Shown here: positions 1,537 through 39,052 of the stretch, in pieces
Layout: every line of letters starts with the position of its first letter
Numbering within the stretch: the first letter of the stretch is position 1
Virus record (IMG/VR): IMGVR_UViG_3300015264_000010
Span: 1 to 48,401 of that record
Origin: a virus
DNA: 48,401 nt
Direction: 5' to 3' (one strand)
Made by a program: the position numbers and the translations under genes
Notes under the pieces: model-generated
The model's database searches: none
Told to the model about the DNA's origin: nothing
What the model saw: the letters and a program-made list of their open reading frames with translations, nothing else

Positions 1537-3003
1537 TTAGCCTCTCACAGTCCGCGAGGTTGCAACAGTACGGCCACGCTTGAGCATGAGTTCAGTGAAG
1601 CCCCAAACCACGGCATCCATTTCGTCAGGGCTCTCGTCACTACCAATCTCGTTACCCTCGTCATCCTTGGTGCCTTTGGGCACCCAAGACGTCCACTGGT
1701 CCTCTAAGGCCGCGTACATCGTCGGCTTACCAACGTGATGGATGCGGCCTTGCTCATACAGCATGGCTACCGGCTCGGCACGTGCACGCTTACCCACGGA
1801 CGCATGGACAGTCTTGAGCTTGATATCGGGGCGTATCTGCCTAAGCACGGTGCCGACGTAATCCCCGCCGTTATTGACCTCAGCTACAACGTAGTTAGCC
1901 ATGTGCACGTCATACAGCAACGCAACCTTTTCCATGGCCTGTGCTGGCGAACCCTTAAAGGACTCGCTATGCAGCACAAACCCTTCACGCCGGGATGCAT
2001 CCGACGCGGTAACCGATATGCCTGTGAAGTCGCTCTTTGCTGACGAGGTTACCGCAGGGTCGACATTGACAGTGACCGTAGACACGTCATCCGGCAAGTC
2101 AGCGTCCCACCGAAAGCCATCGGCATCAAACACGTCATGGCTAAGCATCGCGCCGACCACGTCAGACAGCAGCTCACCATTCAACTCTTGCCGACCGGTG
2201 CGCGTACCCTCGTACTGCCGGATCACCGTGTCATGAAAGACAGGCGCGAGGTTGACAAGATTGTCGTATGTGGTGCCGCGAATGATATAGAAGTTGCCGA
2301 ACTTGCCGTTGACCAGCTTCTTGACGTCCTTGCTCGGGCGAGGCGTACCCGTAAGGATCATGCGCGGCTCTTCACCAAGCCGCATACCCATCAAAGCGTT
2401 GGACATGACAGCCGCAAGGTAACGCCATGTACTGAACTCATCACCCCATACGAAATCGTGTTGTGGGCCACGCAGTAAGTCAGGGTCCTCTGAGGAATAC
2501 GCAAACGCAACAGCTCCGTTATGAAAGACGATACGTCGCTTGCTAGGTTGATACTCAGGACGTTCCCACTTGGGGAATACATTGAGCAGGCCACTTTCAC
2601 CCTCAATCATGACGTCACGTACGTCGGCAGCGGTCCGCGCAATGAGCGCGATACGACCAGCACCCCCGCGCGTCTTAGTGGTCATGGTGCGTACACCCTC
2701 AGCACCGATGCGCGTCTTACCAAACCCGCGACCTGCCATCCACAAGGCACCGGTCTTGCCATCTCCGCGTTTAAACGGCAACCGCTGGTTTGCCCGAGCA
2801 TGCCGCACCGGGCACTCAGGGTGTGGGTTGCCCACGCACATGGGGATGCGGCACAGCCACGCCGTCCGACGTACCTCACGCTCCACCCGGAGGCGCGCGG
2901 CTAGCTGTCGCTTACGATCGGGATCAAGCGCCGTGATGCGTTCGCGCAGTTCCGACACCGGTGTTGGCTCGGGTTTGGGCTTGTTACTCACGCCTCTAGT
3001 CAT
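1537..3003 (-). CDS. terL: Terminase large subunit (packaging ATPase/nuclease)
   Basis: TerL is the motor that translocates DNA into the prohead and cuts concatemers. The 488-residue protein shows Walker A GRGFGKT (about residues 91-97), Walker B FVWGDE (about 184-189) and a nuclease-domain Asp in VNVDPA (about 315). A Cys/His cluster at residues 51-68 (CRIPMC, HPEC) is an N-terminal extra that could bind zinc. The ATG at 3003 is chosen because AAGGGG lies 9 nt upstream; it overlaps the TerS stop by 8 bp. A longer frame starts at 3042. A GTTTAAAC site at 2769-2776 encodes its PFKR stretch. Confidence 0.93.
   Translation of the reverse strand: MTRGVSNKPKPEPTPVSELRERITALDPDRKRQLAARLRVEREVRRTAWLCRIPMCVGNPHPECPVRHARANQRLPFKRGDGKTGALWMAGRGFGKTRIGAEGVRTMTTKTRGGAGRIALIARTAADVRDVMIEGESGLLNVFPKWERPEYQPSKRRIVFHNGAVAFAYSSEDPDLLRGPQHDFVWGDEFSTWRYLAAVMSNALMGMRLGEEPRMILTGTPRPSKDVKKLVNGKFGNFYIIRGTTYDNLVNLAPVFHDTVIRQYEGTRTGRQELNGELLSDVVGAMLSHDVFDADGFRWDADLPDDVSTVTVNVDPAVTSSAKSDFTGISVTASDASRREGFVLHSESFKGSPAQAMEKVALLYDVHMANYVVAEVNNGGDYVGTVLRQIRPDIKLKTVHASVGKRARAEPVAMLYEQGRIHHVGKPTMYAALEDQWTSWVPKGTKDDEGNEIGSDESPDEMDAVVWGFTELMLKRGRTVATSRTVRG
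2769..2776. repeat. GTTTAAAC palindrome, copy in terL
   Basis: First of 16 copies of YGTTTAAACR in the window. This one is intragenic. All copies start at 2769, 9651, 10836, 11306, 11952, 15691, 20382, 21400, 22579, 24729, 24792, 27098, 32221, 38711, 41224 and 46089. Confidence 0.9.
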
Positions 3004-3532
3004 CGGCGGTGTCCCCTTCAAGATCGACCATCTCGGGGTCACTCATGATGTTGCCGCCCCCGCTAAGCTCCGAAACAAGCGCTTCGATCTCGTCATCAAG
3101 CACGTTACGAATCGTCACGTTGTGCTTGACCAACACGGGCCGGTTGATGCCAAGAAGTAGCGCGCGCTGTTTGCGCACCTCGCCGAGTGTCTTCTCAAGG
3201 CTGTTAAGCTGCTCGATCTGATACCCGATGGGCTCATTCTTAGCCTTACGTTCTGCGGCAATGTCCGCCACCATGGCCATCATCGCGGTTACGCGCTGCT
3301 CGGATGCGTCGTAACCCGCCGCTTCATGCGCCCGAACGTCGTCCATGTCCTCTTGCGGAAGTTGGATAGCAGTCAGCTCGCGCACCCATTGATGGGCCGT
3401 TGCAGTGCTGACATCAAGTTCGTCGGCAATACGGCTGTAGGGCTCTTTAGCTAGTCTCAGCTCAAGAGCCCTACGCTTCTTAGCCCATATGTCACAACGC
3501 TGAATGGCGTTCTCGTATTCACGATGTGCCAT
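2996..3532 (-). CDS. terS: Terminase small subunit-like DNA-binding protein
   Basis: TerS recognises the packaging site and presents DNA to TerL. The 178-residue protein has a helix-turn-helix near residues 34-52 (RIADELDVSTATAHQWVRE), a long helical middle suited to oligomerisation and an acidic tail. The assignment rests on this fold and on its position directly upstream of terL. I see no obvious cos site, so headful and cos packaging cannot be told apart. Confidence 0.75.
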   Translation of the reverse strand: MAHREYENAIQRCDIWAKKRRALELRLAKEPYSRIADELDVSTATAHQWVRELTAIQLPQEDMDDVRAHEAAGYDASEQRVTAMMAMVADIAAERKAKNEPIGYQIEQLNSLEKTLGEVRKQRALLLGINRPVLVKHNVTIRNVLDDEIEALVSELSGGGNIMSDPEMVDLEGDTADD

Positions 3533-3543
3533 GTCGTTTAACC

Positions 3544-3720
3544 CTAACGCTCGGAGATCTCCGATCGTAGCTTACGCAACGCACGACGAACAGGTGTCTC
3601 TCCCACATCAATCCCTTGCGCGTAAAGCTCCGCTTGAACGTCAATGTACGTACGCTGCCCGGTGTTCATGACCGCACGTTCAAGCATGGACATCGGGGAC
3701 TCACGCCTTAAACCTGCCAT
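3544..3720 (-). CDS. Small hypothetical protein (58 aa)
   Basis: The ATG at 3720 overlaps the stop of the preceding DUF3310 gene as TGATG, a translational coupling arrangement. A longer frame from 3867 would overlap that gene almost wholly and is not favoured. The product is basic and helical (VRRALRKLRSEISER at the C-terminus), possibly a small winged-helix-like DNA binder, but I do not recognise a family. Confidence 0.6.
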   Translation of the reverse strand: MAGLRRESPMSMLERAVMNTGQRTYIDVQAELYAQGIDVGETPVRRALRKLRSEISER

Positions 3721-4085: not shown

Positions 4086-4112
4086 GACTACCCCCATCGT
4101 TGTCCGGTCCGG

Positions 4113-4174
4113 GGTGTCCGAACCAGGGTGACCTGCGCGTATGCCATCCGGACGCCCCCGGACCTTCGGACACC
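4113..4174. repeat. 10-bp inverted repeat between translocase and DUF3310 genes
   Basis: GGTGTCCGAA (4113-4122) and TTCGGACACC (4165-4174) are perfect inverted copies separated by 42 bp. Several CCGGAC or GTCCGGAC words lie between and beside them. On the leftward transcript it would form a stem-loop directly after the translocase stop. There is no U-tract, so it could be an RNA processing or attenuation element or a protein-binding site. Confidence 0.5.
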
Positions 4175-6190
4175 TTAACCCCGTCCGGACACCCCCCGTG
4201 ACCGGTCCATTGGACTGCTGAACAACGGCCTACCACTTTCGATGTCTCGTGCGTGCCGTGCGTCGCGCAGACCCTCAACGGTCTCAGCCGCAGGGTTCCA
4301 CCGAGGACGCACATCCGCGCCCACCTGAGGTACCGGCCGATTAAGCACGCACGCAAGCGTATCGGTCAGCAGCCCCTCGATCTCACGCGCCTCGATACAC
4401 GTCATATCGCCCGAGAATATCTCAACCGTATCGGTGATGAGATCCCCCCAATACTGTGTCTCCGCGTGCTGCTCACTACGCGTCTCAAGCGCTTGATGCG
4501 TCTGCCCGATATACCCGACCGTATCGCCGTACGTCTCCACCCTAAGCCCGTAGATGACATGCGGCTTAATCGCCAAGTCAGCACGCCGGATGTCGACAAA
4601 CACACCGTCCCAAAACTTGCCAGACGGTTCCGGGCCACTCGTCAGCCACGCCAAAATGTCCGTGCGTGCGTACACCTTGGTACGCCCGTTAGCGCCAACG
4701 GCACTCGGCCACGGTGCATACCCCTTGGACTCCGCGCTACGTGCCCCCTTCTGCCACTGCTCAAGCACCGTTAACGGCACGTTGTGCCCGTGCTTGGCAA
4801 GCATGCTGTGTGCTTCCTTAAGCGTTACCGTCATGGCTAGCTCAATGTGTGGCAAGCCTGCTATCTCATTCACCCCTTGCGGTAGGTACCCTTGCACCGA
4901 CGTAACGCGCACGTCTGGCACAGCCTCAAGCTCCGCCGACCAAGCCAAGTCAGACACGTTATCCAGGTCGGCAAGAAGGCATGCATCCGACTCTTGCAAG
5001 TGTGGTGGCATATACCGCACCACAGCCGTTGACGTGACAAGGTACCAACTCCAGTCCATCGGATGCGGAATGTACCGATGCCCGTGCGCCAACATCTTCC
5101 ACGTGCGCATGTCCCACTTGCTCATAAGCGCGGCGTTGAAGTTCTCGCGAACCGCCCCGCCACCAAACACCGCAGCCTCCGCCCGCTGGCAGATTACATG
5201 GATATAGATACCAAACTCACGCCCCATATACACGCTGTAGTGCATGGAACGCACGGCCGGAGAATGCCTCGCAGCCTCGCTGTGTGCCGCCTTGGCGTAC
5301 TCCCAAAAGTCCTTGAGCATGGCCATGAGGGTATTGGCCTCTTCCATGATGACGTGCAAAGGGGCAAAAACGGCCGCGCGACCTGAAAGCCGTGCCGAGA
5401 TATCCTCCTTACGTCGTCGCTCAAGCTCAGCGAACACGGCCTGAAACGCGTTGTGGCACGTCTCAGCCTCGCTATAATACTTGATGTTGCGGAACTCCAA
5501 AGCAACCGCAAGGTCAAGCATGGACACACCCTTGACGTCCAAAATGACGACCTGCGCACCACTCCGAATGTACTGCGGCACCAAAAATCGATACAGGTTA
5601 CTCTTACCTCCACCTGACCCCGCTGACGCCTTGATGTGCGGCCCCATGGTCACATGGTCGTACACGACCGGTGCGCCCGACACATCCGTACCCAGCACAA
5701 CGCGATGCGGACTCCCCGCTTCGGCTTCCACGAACGGAAGGTAGTCGTACACGGTTCGTGGCGCGCCGAATGACGGTGTCGGATACAGCTTGACCAACGC
5801 CCCGTGGCCCACGTATAGCCACTCAGCGGACGGTGCGCCGTCAAACCCAAGGCGCGACCCGATCTCGCCCGCAATCCGATCTTTGACCTTCTCATTGGTG
5901 CCGGGACTGATCGGCAGCTTGACCAAGACATGCGACGTGAGGTCAGTCGGGTCGATCGGCCACACCTTGGGCAGCGTCACATACCGTTCCGGGTGCGTAC
6001 GCAGTGCAGCCGCGATGTTGGCGGCAACCCCCACAGCGTCCGTACCCGTCTTGGGCAAGTTGTCGATAAGCACCTGAGCGGCGGGTCGGATCCACTTGTC
6101 CCGACGTTGGGCGTGCTCGGCGGCTTGCACAAGTGCCCAAAGCGCACACGGCAACAAGCCCAAGCAGACAAGCACGAATGCGCCGATCAT
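4175..6190 (-). CDS. FtsK/SpoIIIE-like DNA translocase fused to a GIY-YIG nuclease domain
   Basis: This 671-residue membrane-anchored protein has an N-terminal membrane helix (residues 2-22). Its FtsK/TraB-type ATPase core has Walker A GSGGGKS (191-197) and Walker B VVILDVKG (214-221). The C-terminal part (about 540-630) carries GIY-YIG features: VIYGL, then GYIGQT, an Arg in LETRSEQH, Glu residues in IEAREIE and a final LNR. Homologous actinomycete translocases (TraB/TraSA) move double-stranded DNA between cells; fusion to a nuclease is not something I know for them. The ATG at 6190 overlaps the upstream stop as TGATG, so it is probably translated together with the preceding membrane protein. 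Function in a phage (entry, packaging, DNA transfer, exclusion) is unknown. Confidence 0.8.
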   Translation of the reverse strand: MIGAFVLVCLGLLPCALWALVQAAEHAQRRDKWIRPAAQVLIDNLPKTGTDAVGVAANIAAALRTHPERYVTLPKVWPIDPTDLTSHVLVKLPISPGTNEKVKDRIAGEIGSRLGFDGAPSAEWLYVGHGALVKLYPTPSFGAPRTVYDYLPFVEAEAGSPHRVVLGTDVSGAPVVYDHVTMGPHIKASAGSGGGKSNLYRFLVPQYIRSGAQVVILDVKGVSMLDLAVALEFRNIKYYSEAETCHNAFQAVFAELERRRKEDISARLSGRAAVFAPLHVIMEEANTLMAMLKDFWEYAKAAHSEAARHSPAVRSMHYSVYMGREFGIYIHVICQRAEAAVFGGGAVRENFNAALMSKWDMRTWKMLAHGHRYIPHPMDWSWYLVTSTAVVRYMPPHLQESDACLLADLDNVSDLAWSAELEAVPDVRVTSVQGYLPQGVNEIAGLPHIELAMTVTLKEAHSMLAKHGHNVPLTVLEQWQKGARSAESKGYAPWPSAVGANGRTKVYARTDILAWLTSGPEPSGKFWDGVFVDIRRADLAIKPHVIYGLRVETYGDTVGYIGQTHQALETRSEQHAETQYWGDLITDTVEIFSGDMTCIEAREIEGLLTDTLACVLNRPVPQVGADVRPRWNPAAETVEGLRDARHARDIESGRPLFSSPMDRSRGVSGRG

Positions 6191-6759
6191 CACGCGAACC
6201 ACCCCCGAACCTGATCCCGAATAGCAAGCACGTACACGTACCATTCACTACGCTCATGGCCGTTCCGCAGACGTTCTTTAAGCGCAGCCACCCCCACCCG
6301 CACGGCATGTGTTGCCGCCCACACCCCCGCAAGAGTGCTGACCAGAATGAGCGGCAGCCAACCCCAGTTAGCCCACGCCCACACCGTGACGTCCCCGATA
6401 AGCTTGAGCGTGTCCCCCAACCGCCGAGCAACCCACAACCACGCGCTTAACGGCGCGTACTTGATGAACGCCAGCACACAGAACACAACGCCCCAGCGCC
6501 ACACCATGACGCGCCACTTAGGCCCCTTGACGACCGGGCGGCCGGACCAAAACGCATTACGGTGTGGCGCCGACGCTCCCCGAGTGAACGTCGCGTTGTG
6601 CATGACGTTGCTATGCGGGTTGTCCGCATGCAGGCTTACCGCCATCCACTTGACAAACCCTCGGCACACCTCAAAGGGCGCGTGAATCCACAAGGGCATG
6701 CGGAAGGCGTCAGCCTTGAACAGCGGCTGATCGGGTCGAAACTTCACGGTGGGGGCCAC
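6190..6759 (-). CDS. Membrane protein coupled to the FtsK-like translocase
   Basis: The GTG at 6759 is preceded by GGGGG at 7-8 nt and gives about 189 residues; a longer frame to 6849 would overlap the upstream gene. A soluble N-terminal half is followed by hydrophobic stretches VVFCVLAFIKYAPLSAWLWVA and LPLILVSTLAGVWAATHAV and a basic C-terminal tail. I do not recognise a family. Its tight coupling to the translocase recalls the small membrane (Spd-type) partners next to TraB in Streptomyces mobile elements; that analogy rests on context, not sequence. Confidence 0.65.
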   Translation of the reverse strand: MAPTVKFRPDQPLFKADAFRMPLWIHAPFEVCRGFVKWMAVSLHADNPHSNVMHNATFTRGASAPHRNAFWSGRPVVKGPKWRVMVWRWGVVFCVLAFIKYAPLSAWLWVARRLGDTLKLIGDVTVWAWANWGWLPLILVSTLAGVWAATHAVRVGVAALKERLRNGHERSEWYVYVLAIRDQVRGWFA

Positions 6760-6784: not shown

Positions 6785-7357
6785 TCATGCGGGGACCACC
6801 ATCCACCTAAGGTGTTGCAGCCGGTTGCGGAGCTTGGACCGCGCGCCATGCCAGTTGCCTTGTGCAGCCACGTGCCCCGGAGCGCGTTGTGTCCTGGCGT
6901 GCATGCGGCTCACGGCCACGCTGCGTTGGTTGACTGTGAGCGTGTCCAACGCCTTGTGCACGTCCCGCGCCACGCTTTGCCAGTCCAAGACTCGTGCTTG
7001 GTCCTCAGCACTCCGCGCCTGACAGATCATGTCGATAAGCGGGTTACCGCCGTCGATGACCGGCGACGTCAAGTCCACGTCGGCAAACCGTGCGCGCTCG
7101 TTCAAGTGCTTACGCCACAGCCGAAGCATCTCGTTGCGTGCCCGAAACTTGACCCACGAATCGACCGGATGCACACCGTCCTCACGCCAAGACTCAGCCG
7201 CCCGCATCGCCGTGAACACCGACTCAGCCGCCATGTCTTCCGCGCTTAGCGTTGGCACACTCCGCGAAATGCCCTTGGCGGTCTTGATGAACCACCCCTC
7301 GCGCCAAAGCCGGTCAACGACGTTGGTCCGTACATACGGCGCTACCGCTCCTGACAT
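6785..7357 (-). CDS. Sigma-70/ECF-like transcription factor (putative)
   Basis: The 190-residue product resembles a two-domain ECF sigma factor. A region-2-like part (SAEDMAAESVFTAMRAAE, then FRARNEMLRLWRKH) is followed by a linker and a region-4-like part (VHKALDTLTVNQRSVAVSRM, then NWHGARSKLRNRLQHL). If correct it could redirect host RNA polymerase to phage promoters. It sits mid-way in the leftward operon. The ATG at 7357 has GGGGG 8 nt upstream and lies just after the RuvC-like gene's stop. The similarity is by pattern, so another phage HTH protein remains possible. Confidence 0.55.
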   Translation of the reverse strand: MSGAVAPYVRTNVVDRLWREGWFIKTAKGISRSVPTLSAEDMAAESVFTAMRAAESWREDGVHPVDSWVKFRARNEMLRLWRKHLNERARFADVDLTSPVIDGGNPLIDMICQARSAEDQARVLDWQSVARDVHKALDTLTVNQRSVAVSRMHARTQRAPGHVAAQGNWHGARSKLRNRLQHLRWMVVPA

Positions 7358-7362
7358 GACCC

Positions 7363-7815
7363 CTACCCCCGTACCTTGCCGGACTTGGCGACGTGCCACG
7401 TACCGATACACCACGCGTCCTTTGCATGCCCGCCGAAACCCCACCACGGCAACTGCGCGAGGTCACGACGCGTCATGTCCAGGTACCACCCCATCTTGTA
7501 GATGGACTTGTGCGATCCCGCGTTGTACCCGATGTACGGGACTTGCGTGCGACCACACAGGTACTTTATCACCCCGATAAGTTGTGCAGTCAGGAATTCG
7601 TTACCTGACATGCTCTTTTCGTTCCACGCGTAAAGTGCCCACTTCTCACACACGACCGTATGGATCGTGCGCCCCAATAGCCCCACCTCAAGCGCTGCCA
7701 CACACGTCTCCGGCGTCAGCTCGATGGCCGACGTACACGTGTCCTCGTCCCATGTGGCGTACCCGACGTGCCGATCCCCGGGATCGATGCTTACCCAACG
7801 CGCCGGAAGGTTCAT
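7363..7815 (-). CDS. RuvC-like Holliday junction resolvase / RNase H-fold nuclease
   Basis: The 150-residue protein begins with WVSIDPGDRHVGYATW, the typical first Asp strand of RuvC folds. A Glu follows in VVCEKWALY and an Asp in HAKDAWCIG near the C-terminus, the expected acidic triad. Such enzymes resolve branched intermediates before packaging, which fits its place between the polymerase and the terminase. The ATG at 7815 has GGAGG 10 nt upstream; the GTG at 7824 is too close to that site. Confidence 0.72.
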   Translation of the reverse strand: MNLPARWVSIDPGDRHVGYATWDEDTCTSAIELTPETCVAALEVGLLGRTIHTVVCEKWALYAWNEKSMSGNEFLTAQLIGVIKYLCGRTQVPYIGYNAGSHKSIYKMGWYLDMTRRDLAQLPWWGFGGHAKDAWCIGTWHVAKSGKVRG

Positions 7816-11037: not shown

Positions 11038-11123
11038 GTTACATCAGTTACATCATGGCCCTTGACCTGGGGTTTTGGGGTACATCTTTGGGTACGTCAG
11101 GGGGTGCATCACTGGGTACGTCA
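11038..11123. repeat. Iteron array, 12-bp period
   Basis: Two adjacent 9-mers GTTACATCA (11038-11055) are followed by four repeats at exact 12-bp spacing, starting 11079, 11091, 11103 and 11115: GGTACATCT, GGTACGTCA, GGTGCATCA, GGTACGTCA. Reverse-strand copies with the same 12-bp spacing occur at 11193-11201 and 11205-11213. ACGGTTACATCAG near 11036 and CTGATGTAACCGT near 11192 form a 13-bp inverted repeat. Further related copies lie at 10923-10940. Confidence 0.75.
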
Positions 11124-11139
11124 GGCCCTGTAGATGATC

Positions 11140-11169
11140 TTGACATAGCCATAGATAATGGTGGATACT
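11140..11169 (+). promoter_or_regulatory. Candidate rightward early promoter
   Basis: TTGACA (11140-11145) and GATACT (11164-11169) are separated by 18 bp, directly after the iteron array. It would drive the primase-helicase arm. A second -10-like TAGGGT lies at 11265-11270 without a clear -35. Confidence 0.45.
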
Positions 11170-11305
11170 ACGGGTTCAAGATCAAAAACCTCTGATGTAA
11201 CCGTTGATGCACCCTGGGGTACACCGGACTACCCGGAATCCGCGACGCACCGGTAAGACGATGGTAGGGTGAGGCCACAGGTTCCCCATAGACGACAGAT
11301 GGGAC

Positions 11306-32220: not shown

Positions 32221-32228
32221 GTTTAAAC
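32221..32228. promoter_or_regulatory. GTTTAAAC at the tape measure stop / distal tail start
   Basis: Minus-strand order is GGAG-C-GTTTAAAC-G-ATG. The site also contains the TAA stop of the tape measure gene. Confidence 0.8.
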
Positions 32229-35200
32229 GCTCCGTCCTGCGGCAACGATCCCGCGTCCCGACCCCCGGATGTAGCCGCCCACGCCGGGCGCAACCTTCTT
32301 GACCTCGTCAATAAGCTCCTCAAGCTTATCGATAAGCTCGCCAACACCCATGCTCTTCAAGCCTCTGGACTCTTCCGGCGTGAGCACGGCTTCCGGCTTG
32401 CCTGAACGGTTAACCCCGACGCTGCCGGGTTGCAACCAACCGCCATCGTCGTATGTGGGTAGAACGCCACCTTGGTTGTATGCCCAATGCACGTGATTAT
32501 AGTGCGCGGCCATGAGGCTAGGGCTGTAGCTGTGGTTCTGTCCATGCCAGACCGTTTGACCGCCAGCCGGACCGTAGATCAACTCAAGCGTCTTGCTGCC
32601 ATAGTTCTTCTTGATCCAGTTGAAGATATCCATACTGGGGGTCATGTCGACCGCGCGGCCCTTGTAGTGCCACGAGTTCTTGGCGTGGTGGCCACCTGTG
32701 GTGCTGTAGAACGCAATCGAAGGGAACGCCTTGCGGAGCACGCTTTCCTGCCACGCCCACCCTTGACCGTCACTGATCTTTAGGTCGCCAGGCTTGCCAA
32801 GAACGCTCGTGCCGGGGCTGTTACCTCCACCCGAGTGGTTGCCGATGACGATATTCTTGACGCCGGTCATGAGCGTTTCAACGGCCTTGTGCACCATGTC
32901 GTTGAGCCACGGGGCTTTAGCGAGGTTCTTAGCTCCCTCCGCGATGTTGCCAATGGTCTTAAGCGGACCATCAACCATGCTCGACAGGTCTTCCCACCAC
33001 CCGGACAGCGTGCCGACGATCCCACCCCCTGCTAGCGCCTGACGCGGGACGATGCCACCTCGGGCAAGTCCAAGGGCCTGCTTGACCCCGTGAACGCCTC
33101 CCGACCGGGCTACAGCGTTCATGCTGTCCACGAACGCCGGGCCTACCGCGCGAGTCCACTCCGGGCGCATGACGGCTTCACCTCCTGACAGCGCGAGCGC
33201 GCCACCCGTGGGACTGGTGAACATGTGCACGTCGCTGCCGGGCGTGTATCCCGGCAGCACGCCACCCGTGGCAAGTTTGGGGATCGGCGTAATCGGCGAT
33301 ACCCCGACCTTGGTGGCGATGCTGTTGAACCCCGCAATGATCCCGTCGTCAATGATCGTGTTAACCAAGATCTTGATCGGGGCTTTGACGATGTCCGTTA
33401 CCTTTTGCCATGCCGCCTTTACCGCGTTGACGCCGGTTGTGAACGCGTCGGGAATCGTTTTGGTGATAAACGTCTTGATGGGCTCGAAAATGTGATCTTT
33501 GATCCAGTCCCATTCGATCTTAATCCCGCGCTTCATGTCCGCCCACACGGCCTTAACATGGTCCTTGAGCCATGTCCACGCCGGACCGAACGTTTTCTTA
33601 ACCCAGTTGAGCGCGGGATTTAGGATGTGGTCCTTGATCCAATCCCACTCAATCTTGATGCCGCGCTTCATGTCAGCCCACAGCGCCTTGACGGTATCTT
33701 TAAGCCACGTCCAAGCGGGACCGAACGTCTTTTTCAGCCAATTGATGATCGGCTGCAAGATGTGGTCGTGAATCCAATCCCATTCGATCTTGATACCTCG
33801 CTTGAGATCGTTCCACATTGCCACGACGTGGTCCTTTATCCACGTCCACGCTTGCGCGAATTCTTTCTTCAAGAAGCCGACCACAATGTCAAAGATCTTC
33901 TTGATACCGTCCCACGTCTTGCTGATGAACGACTTGATGCCGTTCCACGCCGGGACGATGACGTCTTTCCACAGCGCCGTAAACGCCTTGCCGAGAAGGA
34001 TTAGGGCAATCTCAATGGTCTTGTAGATGATCTGAATCGCGACCCAAGCAATCCGGATGGCGAGGTGAATGCCCTCCCACGCGGGCTTGATGAACACTTT
34101 CCACAGCACGTTGAACACCGGGCCAAGAACCGTCTTGACGACGCTAACGATAGTGTCAAATATGCCCTTGACGATCCCCCACGTCGTACTGATGACGGTC
34201 TTGATACCGGACCACACCGGGCCGATAAGGTTTTTCCATAGCCAATTCCACGCGGCGGCAAACGCACCCTTGATGTAATCAATGGCCTTGCCGAACACGG
34301 AGTTTTGGATGTCTGTCCATACCTTGCTGACGGTGGCCTTGATGCCGTTCCATACGTTGCCGACCGTAGTGCCGAAGTCGGTCCACGCCTTCTTGAAGTT
34401 TCCGGACAGAAGGTCACCGATAATCTTGAACACGCCGGACAGATACGCCCATGCCACCTTAACCGCGCCGACGATAAGGTCCCACGTGACCTTGAACTCC
34501 GTACCGAGCGCTTTTAGGTACGTCTGTACGGTCGGGCTCTTGAACAGCTCGACAAGTTGGTCCCACACCTTTTTCATGGCGGGCCACGCGGTATTGACAA
34601 ACCAATCCGTTACCGCACTGATGGCTTTCTTGATGTTGGCCCACGCGGTGTTGACGAAATCGTGAAACCACTTGTTCTTGTTATACAGCAGCACCAAGCC
34701 ACCGACGAACAACGCGATAGCTGCGACAATGAGCGTTATAGGAGCCGTAAGGATGCCTAGCGCGACGTCAAGCGCGCTCGTGGCGACTGTCGCCTCACCC
34801 TCAGCTACCGTCATGGCTTCCGTGGCTACCGCAGCGCCACCAAACACCTTGGTCAACGTCCCAAGCGCGCTCGACACACCGCTAATCGCAGATACGGCGT
34901 TGGATACGACCGTGATGCCCTTGAACGCTGCGACAAGTAGATACACGGCTGCCGCGAGCTTGGCCACCGTGTCAGGGCTGAGCTTGGCAATCTGCCCGGT
35001 TAGGTCAACGAGCGTCTTGAGTACCGGCCCCCCAAGACCTGAGATGCCCACCCCGAGGTGGCCAATCACGGTGACGAGGTTTTTGACCAGTTGCTCAAGC
35101 AACGGCGCGTTCTGCTTGACGTAATCCGTGAATACCTGAAAGTCCTTGCTGCCCTTGAGGTTCGTGGCCCACTTGAGGAACTGATCGGACACGTCCTTGA

Positions 35201-38200
35201 TTGCCTTAAGTACCGGCCCTTGGAACGGCTCGAATGCCACGATAAGCGCCGCAACGCCCTTGCCGACGTTTATGAGCGCGTCCCCGAACGTCTTGATGCT
35301 GCCTTGTGTCGTCCGCGTAAGGAACGCACCAAAGCCTTTGATCTGTGGGCTGTCGAGCGCAGCGAACGCCTTAGTGACCAACCCGCCGATGGTGTTGCCA
35401 GTGTCACTGATGAACTTGATAAGGCCCGTCTTGACGTTTCCGGCCGCGCCGAGGACGCTCTTCTCAAGCCCTGCTTGGATGGCCGGAAGGATACCGGCCC
35501 CTGCCGCGTTGCTAGTCTGTGCCTTGACCGTCTGCGAGAACTTGTTCCAAAACTTCGCAAAGTCGATCTGCGCTTGACCGATGCCTTGCAACGCGGTCTT
35601 GAGCTTATTGGCGGCATCGATGCCGACCTGTGACGCGTTCTTACGCGCCTTGGCGAGGTTGTCTTCGGCGGTCTTTACCTTGTCTTGCGCGTCAGCTACC
35701 GAACGACCTGCGGTTTCCGCAGCTCGCGATGCGTTCTCACGCGCCTTAGCCACCCCGTCCTCAGCGGCTTGAATCTTCCGTGAGTTGGAGGTGGCTACAT
35801 CGGATTGATGCTGGATAGCCTGAGTGACCTTGTCCTGTGCGTCCTTGACACGCTTAGTGCCGTTCTCTTGAACCGTGACTTGCTGCTCTTGCGCGCGAAT
35901 GACTGCACGCTCGGCGTCGGACAGTTTCCTAGCGTTCTGCGCACGTACCTGCGCTTGCCGTTGCTCGGCCTTAGCGATATTGTCTTGCGCAGCCTTAAGC
36001 TTTCGTTGATTGGCGTACGTGACATCGGCTTGCCGTTGCTGCGCACTGGCGATGTTATCTTGTGCGTCGCGAACCTTCTTGGCGTCCTCGGCGATAGTGC
36101 GAGATTGCGATTCTCGCGACTTGGCTAGCTTGTCTTCGGCAGCTTGAATCTTGCGCGCGTTGTCCTCAGCCAAGCGCACTTGGGCTTGCTGCGCCGCAGC
36201 AACCTTCTGTAGCGCGTCGACAATCTTCTTTTGGTCTTGTTCGCGCTGCTCGGCTGCCTTGTTCTGTGCGTCGGTAAGGTTCTGGTCGGCCGTGGATATC
36301 TTGCGGCTGCTCTGCTCAGCCGCTTGTGCGGCCTTGTCACGCGTGTCGGCTAGCTTCTGTTGCGCGCCAGTGATGTTCTTAGCGCCGTCAAGCTCAGCCT
36401 TGGTTTGGGCCTGCTGTGAACCGGCAAGCGCCTCTTGAGCCTTTTGGATGCGCTCGTTATTGGCGATTGCGGTATCGCTTACACCCTGCCGGGCGTTCTT
36501 GAGGTTCTTCTCCGCGTCCGCAATCTTGCCAACGCTGGCGGTTACTTGCTGCTGTGCCGACAGGACTTGCTTGGATTGCGCGTTGCGTTGCGCCGCGAGG
36601 TCTTTGCCCCGGTTGACCAAGTCCTCATAGTCGAGCTTTTGCTGTTGGACCGCTTCCGCCGCGTTGTCCTTCTCGGCTTGAGTGGCTTTCTTATCCGCGC
36701 GGACCTTAGCAAGGTTCTCTTCCGCGAGTTGGATACTCGTAAGCGCCTGTTGCTGACTAAGCGCGTTCTGACGCACGCTCAAGCTCAGGTCGCGCATCTG
36801 CGTTGCGTAGTCCTTACGCGCTTGCGTTAGCGCGTTCTGAGCGTCCTTACTAGACCGTTGCGCGGCGGCTAGCGCTTGCTCTGCGGATTCGACACGCTGA
36901 GCGGCTTGCTCGGCGGACTGTGCAGCCTGACGACGGGCGTCCACCACGCCGCGCTGAGCGTCCTTGACTCGCTGCGCGGCCTGAACCTCGGTGTCCGCAG
37001 CGTTCTTCTCTGCGTCGGCCACTCCCTGTTGCGCGTCAGCAATCGCACGCGCCGAATCCTTGGCCTGTTGTTCCGCAGCCTTGTGCGCGTCGACAATCGC
37101 CTGTTGGGCGTCAGCCACCTTACGGGCGGAAGCGACCTGGTCATCGGCCGCTTTCTCCTGCGCGTCCTTGACGTTGTTCTGCGCTTCGATGATCTTCTGT
37201 GCAGCGTCTTTAGTGGACTGGACAACATCCTCTTGCGCACGCTTGAGATCGGCTTGCGCCCCGGCAACAGCCTCCACAGCGTCCTTCTCGCGCTGCGCGT
37301 TGTCCACAAATACTTGTTTGAGACCTTCTTGCGCCGCTGTTACTGCCTTAGCTGCCGCTTGCGCCGCTTCGGCTGTGTCGTGCTGAGCCTGCCGGTAGTT
37401 GTCCTGTGCGTCAGTAACGCCCTGGATTGCGTCCTTGACTGCCTGTGCTGCGTCAAGCTGAGCCTGTTTGTAGTTTGCAGTAGCGTCGGTAACGGCCTGT
37501 TGGGCATCCCGCTCTTCACGTGACGCCTGCTTGGTGACGTCTAGCACGTTCTGTTTGGCGCTAACAACGTCTTTGGCTGCTTGGGTTGCGTCGTGTGCCG
37601 CTTGCTTCTCGACGTCACCAACGTTTTGCTCAGCGGTCAAGACCTGTTTCATTGCGTCGGCTACCGCGCGTGCACCGTCCTCGCGCGCCCGCTGCAAGTC
37701 CTTCTCGGCGTTCTGAACGCCCTTGAGCGAAGTGGCTACCGCAGCGTTGGCAGCCTGTTGAGCTTGAGCTGTCTGCGCCGCAGCCGCGTCGGACGCAGCA
37801 AGCGCCTTGGACGCGTCGCCGACGCCGAGAAACGCAAGCTTGAGTACGCCGATACCGGCTGCCGCGCCAGCCACAGCCCCTGCCATGGCCCCACACGCAG
37901 CCACCACAGCCGCAGCCGCCGGAGCGGCAGCAGGGGCAATACCCGCAAGCGCTAGCGGGATGACCCCGATGCCTTGCCCTGCGTTGCCAGCCGCGCTGTT
38001 GACGCCTTCAAGCTTGCTTATGGCGCTTCCGGTGTCCGCGTCGACCTTGACCTTTACGTTCTTGCCGTCAAGCTTGTCGGTCTCACGCTTGAACGCGGCT
38101 AGTTCTGCCGCAGCCGCGCCCGCGTCGACACGAATCTGTACGTTCGCGTCCTTCTTGCTAAGCTCATCAAGGTCGGCTTTGATGCGCGTGATCTGCGCTT

Positions 38201-39038
38201 GTGCAAGACTTGGATCGATGTCTATGCCGACCTTAGCGTTACCGAGGTCTGCAAGTTCCTTCTTGAGCGCGGCGAGCTTGAGTTCACTGTCTGTTGTGTC
38301 CGCGTTGATCTTGACGTCGGGGAGGTTACTTAACGCCCCCTCGATCGTCGCCTTGAACTTCTCACTGAACTTTCCGGCTGCGTCCGACGCAGACGCGGTA
38401 TCAACGTTGACCTTGACGTTGACGTCTTTGATCTTGTTGACCTCTTCGGTAAGGTGCTCAAGACTGGCTTGCGCTGCGCCCGCGTCAACCTTGATGGCGA
38501 TGTTGGCGCTCTCAGAGCCGAGTTTATTAAGCTCAGCACTGATCTCCTGGACTTTGGCAAGCGCTGCCGACGAATCGATGTCGACACCGACGCTCTTGCC
38601 GGACAGCTCCTCAAGCTTGGTCCGGAGCGCGGCTATCTGTTGCTGTGCCGCTGACGTGTCGGCATTGATATTCGGCGATGGGAGGTTTCGGAGCGCGCTG
38701 TCAACTGCGCGTTTAAACGACTCCGAGAACTTGCCCCCGGTGTCCGCGCCTTGTCGAGTGCTCGTGCTGTCGTCCGGGCCGACCTTGGTGTCCTTGGTAC
38801 TGTCCTGAGTAGACTTCTTGAAGCCCTCACCGAACGTCTTGCCGCTTTCAACGCCAGCCTTGGCCGTTGTCTGCGTTACCCCCCGCATTGCGGCGTCGAC
38901 GCTTATCGTTTTGTTCATGCCCTCGGTGAGGGCCTTACCTGCCGCTTCGCCAGCCTTGGCCGCGTCTTTGGCAACCTCCGCGTTTGCCCCGGGTGGCAAT
39001 GCAAGCGTTAGTTGAATGAATGCTTCGCCTAGTTGCAT
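32223..39038 (-). CDS. Tape measure protein with C-terminal M15-like peptidase domain
   Basis: At 2271 residues this is the largest gene; at ~0.15 nm per residue it implies a tail near 340 nm. The N-terminal ~450 residues contain a duplicated ~125-residue module (INADTS... and INADTT...). A very long Ala/Gln/Lys coiled-coil region follows, then hydrophobic segments (LIVAAIALFVGGLVLLY) and Trp-rich repeats. Near the C-terminus a zinc peptidase signature (WHYKGRAVDMTP, HYNHVHWA) could open the cell wall at DNA entry. ATG 39038 has AAGGGG 5 nt upstream; GTG 39044 is too close. A GTTTAAAC lies at 38711. Confidence 0.93.
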   Translation of the reverse strand: MQLGEAFIQLTLALPPGANAEVAKDAAKAGEAAGKALTEGMNKTISVDAAMRGVTQTTAKAGVESGKTFGEGFKKSTQDSTKDTKVGPDDSTSTRQGADTGGKFSESFKRAVDSALRNLPSPNINADTSAAQQQIAALRTKLEELSGKSVGVDIDSSAALAKVQEISAELNKLGSESANIAIKVDAGAAQASLEHLTEEVNKIKDVNVKVNVDTASASDAAGKFSEKFKATIEGALSNLPDVKINADTTDSELKLAALKKELADLGNAKVGIDIDPSLAQAQITRIKADLDELSKKDANVQIRVDAGAAAAELAAFKRETDKLDGKNVKVKVDADTGSAISKLEGVNSAAGNAGQGIGVIPLALAGIAPAAAPAAAAVVAACGAMAGAVAGAAAGIGVLKLAFLGVGDASKALAASDAAAAQTAQAQQAANAAVATSLKGVQNAEKDLQRAREDGARAVADAMKQVLTAEQNVGDVEKQAAHDATQAAKDVVSAKQNVLDVTKQASREERDAQQAVTDATANYKQAQLDAAQAVKDAIQGVTDAQDNYRQAQHDTAEAAQAAAKAVTAAQEGLKQVFVDNAQREKDAVEAVAGAQADLKRAQEDVVQSTKDAAQKIIEAQNNVKDAQEKAADDQVASARKVADAQQAIVDAHKAAEQQAKDSARAIADAQQGVADAEKNAADTEVQAAQRVKDAQRGVVDARRQAAQSAEQAAQRVESAEQALAAAQRSSKDAQNALTQARKDYATQMRDLSLSVRQNALSQQQALTSIQLAEENLAKVRADKKATQAEKDNAAEAVQQQKLDYEDLVNRGKDLAAQRNAQSKQVLSAQQQVTASVGKIADAEKNLKNARQGVSDTAIANNERIQKAQEALAGSQQAQTKAELDGAKNITGAQQKLADTRDKAAQAAEQSSRKISTADQNLTDAQNKAAEQREQDQKKIVDALQKVAAAQQAQVRLAEDNARKIQAAEDKLAKSRESQSRTIAEDAKKVRDAQDNIASAQQRQADVTYANQRKLKAAQDNIAKAEQRQAQVRAQNARKLSDAERAVIRAQEQQVTVQENGTKRVKDAQDKVTQAIQHQSDVATSNSRKIQAAEDGVAKARENASRAAETAGRSVADAQDKVKTAEDNLAKARKNASQVGIDAANKLKTALQGIGQAQIDFAKFWNKFSQTVKAQTSNAAGAGILPAIQAGLEKSVLGAAGNVKTGLIKFISDTGNTIGGLVTKAFAALDSPQIKGFGAFLTRTTQGSIKTFGDALINVGKGVAALIVAFEPFQGPVLKAIKDVSDQFLKWATNLKGSKDFQVFTDYVKQNAPLLEQLVKNLVTVIGHLGVGISGLGGPVLKTLVDLTGQIAKLSPDTVAKLAAAVYLLVAAFKGITVVSNAVSAISGVSSALGTLTKVFGGAAVATEAMTVAEGEATVATSALDVALGILTAPITLIVAAIALFVGGLVLLYNKNKWFHDFVNTAWANIKKAISAVTDWFVNTAWPAMKKVWDQLVELFKSPTVQTYLKALGTEFKVTWDLIVGAVKVAWAYLSGVFKIIGDLLSGNFKKAWTDFGTTVGNVWNGIKATVSKVWTDIQNSVFGKAIDYIKGAFAAAWNWLWKNLIGPVWSGIKTVISTTWGIVKGIFDTIVSVVKTVLGPVFNVLWKVFIKPAWEGIHLAIRIAWVAIQIIYKTIEIALILLGKAFTALWKDVIVPAWNGIKSFISKTWDGIKKIFDIVVGFLKKEFAQAWTWIKDHVVAMWNDLKRGIKIEWDWIHDHILQPIINWLKKTFGPAWTWLKDTVKALWADMKRGIKIEWDWIKDHILNPALNWVKKTFGPAWTWLKDHVKAVWADMKRGIKIEWDWIKDHIFEPIKTFITKTIPDAFTTGVNAVKAAWQKVTDIVKAPIKILVNTIIDDGIIAGFNSIATKVGVSPITPIPKLATGGVLPGYTPGSDVHMFTSPTGGALALSGGEAVMRPEWTRAVGPAFVDSMNAVARSGGVHGVKQALGLARGGIVPRQALAGGGIVGTLSGWWEDLSSMVDGPLKTIGNIAEGAKNLAKAPWLNDMVHKAVETLMTGVKNIVIGNHSGGGNSPGTSVLGKPGDLKISDGQGWAWQESVLRKAFPSIAFYSTTGGHHAKNSWHYKGRAVDMTPSMDIFNWIKKNYGSKTLELIYGPAGGQTVWHGQNHSYSPSLMAAHYNHVHWAYNQGGVLPTYDDGGWLQPGSVGVNRSGKPEAVLTPEESRGLKSMGVGELIDKLEELIDEVKKVAPGVGGYIRGSGRGIVAAGRSV
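33511..33900 (-). repeat. 135-bp tandem repeats inside the tape measure gene
   Basis: Copies begin at 33511, 33646 and 33781, exactly 135 bp apart. Each encodes a 45-residue unit with KIEWDWI, FGPAWTWLKD and WADMKRG. The DNA copies are diverged, so the repeat is old and kept at protein level. Confidence 0.85.
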
Positions 39039-39052
39039 TGCCACCCCTTGCG

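Follow-up and report, generated by a model that had tools for sequence, protein, structure and literature searches.

An actinobacterial phage appears to have split the gene of a plasmid-type Tra DNA pump and gained a nuclease, since the Tra proteins of plasmids have the same helix-turn-helix (HTH) domain as the phage protein and an N-terminal membrane domain that resembles its partner. The combination described here is a Tra-type pump that a phage carries, apparently in split form, and that is fused to a GIY-YIG nuclease. The computed features are a defined domain order, homology to known pumps, conserved catalytic residues, a conserved gene order, and a membrane-anchored motor with a coupled partner in three divergent phages.

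The phage and its gene pair

The window, i.e. the whole stretch of DNA analysed, is an IMG/VR virus record of 48,401 bases, a complete genome whose exact 77-bp terminal repeat gives a circle of 48,324 bp. Tailed-phage core genes (terminase, major tail protein and endolysin) were identified by PHROG matches and the portal gene, an open-ended ORF, via tblastn to actinophage portals; the window also codes for a DNA polymerase, a Prim-Pol/DUF927 helicase, an exonuclease and a Sak4-like annealing protein. The portal matched phages of actinobacteria only, the DNA polymerase mostly such phages and the endolysin mostly phages of Mycobacterium and Gordonia; judged from these matches, the host is thus almost certainly an actinobacterium. 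The GC content of the window is 61%. Family searches for integrases, serine recombinases and ParA found none in the window, which therefore offers no support for a plasmid-prophage lifestyle. Two other regions were noted: a 135-bp tandem repeat (33490-33848) within an ORF of 2273 aa (32223-39044), likely the tape measure gene, and repeats with a 23-nt imperfect inverted repeat (11077-11214) in the intergenic stretch from which two transcription units diverge, possibly an origin or operator.

The genes of the partner membrane protein P0002 (189 aa, 6190..6759) and of the fusion protein P0001 (671 aa, 4175..6190) both run leftward, on the minus strand, and overlap via TGATG, with high coding potential in their frames. 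We placed the start of P0002 at the GTG at 6759 because both its homologues, in the viral contigs L002 and L003, begin there. This agrees with the end coordinate of a first-pass annotation of the same DNA, whose coordinates, strand, length of 671 aa and TGATG overlap were all correct. No close match to P0001 was found in the annotated phage collection, and for this reason its relatives were sought in IMG/VR and in plasmids. L002 and L003 carry both genes at 55-68% identity (55-60% for P0002), with the overlap kept and in the same order towards the terminase genes.

In the three phages the pair has a conserved place, with DNA polymerase, RuvC-like and sigma-like genes on one side and terminase genes on the other. 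Directly upstream, in the same operon and on the same strand, is a sigma-70-like gene (6785..7447; Pfam Sigma70_r2, E 9e-07), found in two of the three phages, in the same order in L003 (6864-7424). Downstream on the minus strand, in the same order in L002 and L003, are the genes of an HTH_23 protein, the probable small terminase subunit (2996..3532), and of the large terminase (1537..3042). The tra region of pRL2 likewise has a sigma-like gene, with no detectable likeness to that of the phage. We rejected a wholesale plasmid-derived module: the Prim-Pol/DUF927 and sigma-like genes seemed at first to resemble neighbours in pRL2, but neither proved closely related to its counterpart there.

Domains of the pair and their plasmid kin

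All the domains of P0001 are given on the minus strand. The protein begins with one hydrophobic, predicted transmembrane helix (residues 2-22, 6125..6187, its hydrophobic stretch at 2-20; hydropathy 2.4-2.8 in 3/3 homologues), which upholds the membrane helix reported in the first-pass annotation. Residues ~139-425 (4916..5776) were assigned to an FtsK-type motor by structure match and by hhalign to plasmid Tra proteins, and the Walker motifs previously noticed are borne out, with an intact Walker A GSGGGKS (residues 191-197, 5600-5620) and Walker B LHVIMEE (residues 278-284, 5339-5359). The AlphaFold2 model of P0001 was built on an alignment of 18 sequences and has a mean pLDDT of 76.5. Compared by VIA-align, its motor matched FtsK motors (Z 26.2; rmsd 3.1 over 260 residues) and, with Z 24.4, the conjugation coupling protein TcpA; HerA-nuclease defence complexes were also among the matches. 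Judged by sequence and model, the motor belongs to the FtsK/HerA translocase superfamily, and the structure prediction that had been proposed as a check supports the FtsK-type fold. Weak motor matches only, including a weak one to mad8, were obtained for P0001 with PADLOC and NCBIfam.

Between motor and nuclease there is an HTH DNA-binding domain (residues 446-517, 4640..4855) of excisionase/MerR-like layout, absent from the first-pass annotation and modelled with pLDDT ~90-94 over most of its length. Its profile scored 19.9 against the C-terminal domain of plasmid Tra (best column shuffle 15.8) and 27.9 against that of ICE-like Tra (best column shuffle 16.8), in each case above 100/100 shuffles. 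By profile comparison, then, the HTH of P0001 is of the kind with which the Tra proteins of plasmids and ICE-like elements terminate.

We considered residues 540-622 (4325..4573) as a GIY-YIG nuclease domain on the basis of catalytic residues, fold comparison and a weak Pfam match. Y547, Y560, R571, H575, E605 and N617 are invariant in 3/3 phages, and the secondary-structure elements follow the order strand-strand-helix-strand-helix. E605 was chosen over E600 as the catalytic residue by its 12-residue spacing to N617, which we take to be that of UvrC. The sole family that Pfam reported for the domain was GIY-YIG PF01541, with E 0.0039 (17.9 bits, hand-typed near-consensus) and E 0.025 (15.3 bits, L002), below the curated cut-off of 22.6 bits; PF01541 gave no match when whole records were searched, and a PDB profile search with the nuclease domain alone found nothing. 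With a domain model of low confidence (mean pLDDT 47.9), rows 1-11 of the VIA-align output were all GIY-YIG nucleases (Z 6.4-3.3), including I-TevI (Z 6.4), UvrC (Z 5.3), T4 EndoII, Slx1 and R.Eco29KI, and the next unrelated chain had Z 2.8. Sequence and model together support a GIY-YIG nuclease fold with all the catalytic residues, for which DNA cleavage is predicted. The signature named in the first-pass annotation was to be given up if structure prediction did not support this fold or if the catalytic Tyr, Arg and Glu were not conserved in homologues; the low-confidence model supports the fold and the three residues are conserved. The nuclease and motor domains are under purifying selection, as dN/dS between L002 and L003 is ~0.15 for the former and ~0.10 for the latter.

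A search for the same domain pairing elsewhere, also suggested beforehand, found it in L002 and L003. The nuclease domain was present in 0 of >50 other fetched loci with the motor family, and none of the motor matches in the 394 actinomycete genomes sampled runs on into a nuclease domain. A separate GIY-YIG gene (L064 / G003 3351-3545) and an ICE-like Tra gene of the same family (L011 contig) lie ~5 kb apart, hence motor and nuclease functions occur close together unfused too.

A tblastn search with the motor retrieved 49 plasmids, 46 of them from Streptomyces (best 1e-18), in which the matching protein is annotated as pRL2-11, Tra, FtsK or DUF87 protein, and hhalign of the motor with plasmid Tra gave E 2e-20 and 3e-19 over ~295 columns. 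This homology supports the kinship to mycelial DNA-transfer proteins assumed at first reading. Related motors were also found in ICE-like viral contigs (L011-L018, L027) and actinomycete genomes and, in a short form, in Streptomyces phage Dagobah and its kin. In a tree of 39 motors the three nuclease-bearing proteins are one long, fully supported branch, and the Dagobah-type phages form a separate group close to the pRL2 clade; given these separate branches, phages seem to have recruited the pRL2-type pump at least twice. As for TraB of pIJ101, the only TraB tried, it had no match to the 18-sequence profile of the phage/pRL2-11-type motor family. On sequence, the phage motor branches deeply within the pRL2-11/pFRL6 Tra family, whose members are carried by linear plasmids and integrative elements of actinobacteria, and is not a classical TraB; of the earlier label 'FtsK/TraB-like', the FtsK part therefore stands on structure and Walker motifs and the TraB part gives way to the pRL2-11 Tra type.

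Two further observations concern this family. The Dagobah 'hypothetical protein' QMP84464 (L006 2547-3476) belongs to the pRL2 Tra family as a short form of its motor. At eight loci (L031, L034, L036, L041, L042, L046, L049, L059) the Streptomyces Tra gene has one or two additional motor ORFs behind it, mostly of ~300 aa and without membrane or HTH parts.

The window copy of P0002 has two hydrophobic segments, which are less pronounced in its homologues. P0002 also has a conserved NATF...W..RW motif that can be aligned to the N-terminal domain of Tra proteins from plasmids; these proteins have a DATF...W..R motif and membrane helices ahead of the motor. The match to this domain is a weak one of a single profile (score 25.6; best of 150 column shuffles 21.0; hhalign probability 10-12%). 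It is suggestive of P0002 being the split-off N-terminal membrane domain of Tra, the phage thus carrying Tra as two genes; no relatives of P0002 were found beyond the window, L002 and L003. The pump had been described at first as a single protein with a small membrane partner: the motor-nuclease and its membrane partner hold by sequence and structure, and given the weak match to the Tra domain the partner is probably not a Spd-like extra.

Repeats at the 3′ end and the role of the pair

Short direct and inverted repeats of the TCCGGA type overlap the 3′ end of the P0001 gene (4098..4196, no strand assigned). All three phages have an inverted repeat directly at this end, with arms of 12-13 nt and a spacer of 38-59 nt, and its sequences differ completely among the phages with complementarity kept, which argues for selection on pairing or symmetry. 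RNA folding of the repeat region gave z of -1.6 to -2.5, and the 13-nt stem beats 60/60, 60/60 and 59/60 shuffles, similar stems being present elsewhere in the window. The clt of pWTY27 is at the 3′ end of traA, with 16 bp inside the gene and the adjacent 159 bp, and contains direct and inverted repeats; the C-terminal domain of pSVH1 TraB reads 8-bp repeats (PMC3583192). The sequence GACCCGGT, which is similar to the pSVH1 site GACCCGGA (PMC5133688), occurs twice in L003. By analogy, the repeats at 4098-4196 are perhaps a candidate clt-like recognition site; a terminator hairpin would explain them too. No TRS-like repeat or recognition motif was found genome-wide in the window. The synonymous divergence between L002 and L003 falls to 0.25 over the 40 final codons of this gene (L002 2501-2620 and the corresponding stretch of L003) vs ~0.56 elsewhere, hinting at a constraint at DNA/RNA level or at recombination.

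Our favoured reading, tentative, possible and short of probable, is that a Tra-derived pump-nuclease works at the membrane on the replicating DNA of the phage itself. We favour it because of the descent from a transfer pump, the retained HTH, the apparently retained membrane domain, and the constant position of the pair, with replication genes on one side and packaging genes on the other, a position that fits a core DNA-handling function. Precisely, the two genes would make a membrane-anchored hexameric dsDNA translocase descended from pRL2-11-type Tra pumps, with the Tra membrane domain split off as an overlapping gene and the GIY-YIG domain added behind the DNA-reading HTH. The HTH would dock on a site in phage DNA, perhaps at the repeats where the fusion gene ends, the nuclease would open circular or concatemeric phage DNA, and the motor would pump this DNA through the membrane, plausibly across the cross-wall into the next hyphal compartment; hexamer, cutting, pumping, substrate and direction are what we infer here.

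We counted for this role the motor, homologous to plasmid Tra and structurally like FtsK and TcpA, the Tra-type HTH at the place of the reading domain of pSVH1 TraB, the membrane domain apparently kept as a split gene, the 3′ repeats in three phages, and the intact nuclease residues under purifying selection. Counted against it were the low pLDDT of the nuclease (47.9), the possible terminator, the lack of a genome-wide motif, the one weak profile match of P0002, a GC content of only 61%, and a host assigned by portal and endolysin no further than actinobacteria, so that a mycelial host is a presumption.

The main rival, which we consider somewhat unlikely, is superinfection exclusion, in which the membrane-anchored motor-nuclease would catch DNA entering through the membrane and cut it, as does SNIPE, a GIY-YIG nuclease tethered to the membrane, which cuts the DNA of phages while it is being injected (PMC13190303). 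P0001 shares with SNIPE the layout of N-terminal transmembrane helix and C-terminal GIY-YIG domain, and HerA/FtsK pumps have been captured by anti-invader systems (PMC10853773); HerA-nuclease defence complexes are among the VIA-align matches. However, no DUF4041 or defence family was detected in P0001 beyond the weak mad8 match to the motor, the gene does not stand alone as a moron would but keeps its order within a replication-to-packaging transcription unit in three phages, and a cutter acting by position would not need a Tra-type HTH.

The neighbouring DNA polymerase, RuvC-like resolvase and probable small and large terminase genes would suit a HerA-NurA-like role at the membrane, unlikely in our judgement, in which the replicating phage DNA is processed: concatemers would be resected or trimmed and fed to recombination or packaging without cell transfer. 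The short motor of Dagobah-type actinophages, without membrane, HTH and nuclease parts, indicates that such a motor can serve phages without transfer. Nevertheless, the membrane anchor is kept in 3/3 phages though this role needs none, and the phage already encodes an exonuclease and a Sak4-like annealing protein.

A bolder form of the favoured own-DNA handling, in our view likewise unlikely, is that of a phage with a conjugation-like machine, in which the split Tra pump-nuclease would cut a clt-like site and drive unpackaged genomes through cross-walls, infecting neighbouring compartments without virions; transfer of this kind needs a septate host, and the phage of the window is placed only with an actinobacterial host. 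Pumping and cutting of host DNA at the membrane for its degradation is very improbable, since a nuclease with a motor could break down large DNA but the sequence-reading HTH, the membrane fixation and the position in a late unit fit poorly, and no host-specific site is known.

Comparison with known systems

FtsK-like proteins in actinophages (e.g. phage Geonosis, PMC11536984), nucleases combined with HerA/FtsK pumps in defence (PMC10853773) and a membrane GIY-YIG nuclease (SNIPE, PMC13190303) have already been described. A search of the open literature for GIY-YIG with an FtsK translocase in a phage did not find the fusion, nor does the available part of PMC10853773 describe it. In Streptomyces-type conjugation a single FtsK-like protein transfers DNA in double-stranded form, reportedly without processing (PMC3583192). 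PMC5133688 raises the question whether the spread of phages is limited by membranes within hyphae. A phage Tra with a fused nuclease would make testable both cutting built into such a pump and the passage of phage DNA between compartments without particles. If exclusion were true, the pair would be a phage-encoded, motor-driven functional relative of the newly described SNIPE defence.

The Tra proteins of pRL2-11/pFRL6 share with the phage a homologous motor over ~300 residues, the C-terminal HTH and, probably, the N-terminal membrane domain; unlike them, single polypeptides without nuclease, the phage appears to split off the membrane domain and adds GIY-YIG, and its motor, at ~25% identity, is on a deep separate branch. 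TraB of pSVH1 and pIJ101 works alike, pumping dsDNA at the membrane with an FtsK-type motor and reading DNA with a C-terminal wing domain, but has no nuclease, and that of pIJ101 has no detectable sequence relation to the phage family profile. The Dagobah motor and its relatives (L019-L026) belong to the same motor family in actinophages; they are instead ORFs of ~310-360 aa with little beyond the motor, on a separate branch near the pRL2 Tra clade.

SNIPE has in common with P0001 the N-terminal transmembrane helix, a DNA-handling middle and the C-terminal GIY-YIG domain, whereas it is a host defence system without partner protein and has DUF4041 in place of the P-loop motor; Pfam gave no DUF4041 match in P0001 or its homologues. 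HerA-NurA and the HerA-nuclease defence complexes likewise pair a ring-type DNA translocase with a nuclease, but in them the nuclease is a separate protein of another fold and the complex is soluble, with neither the membrane domain nor the HTH of Tra.
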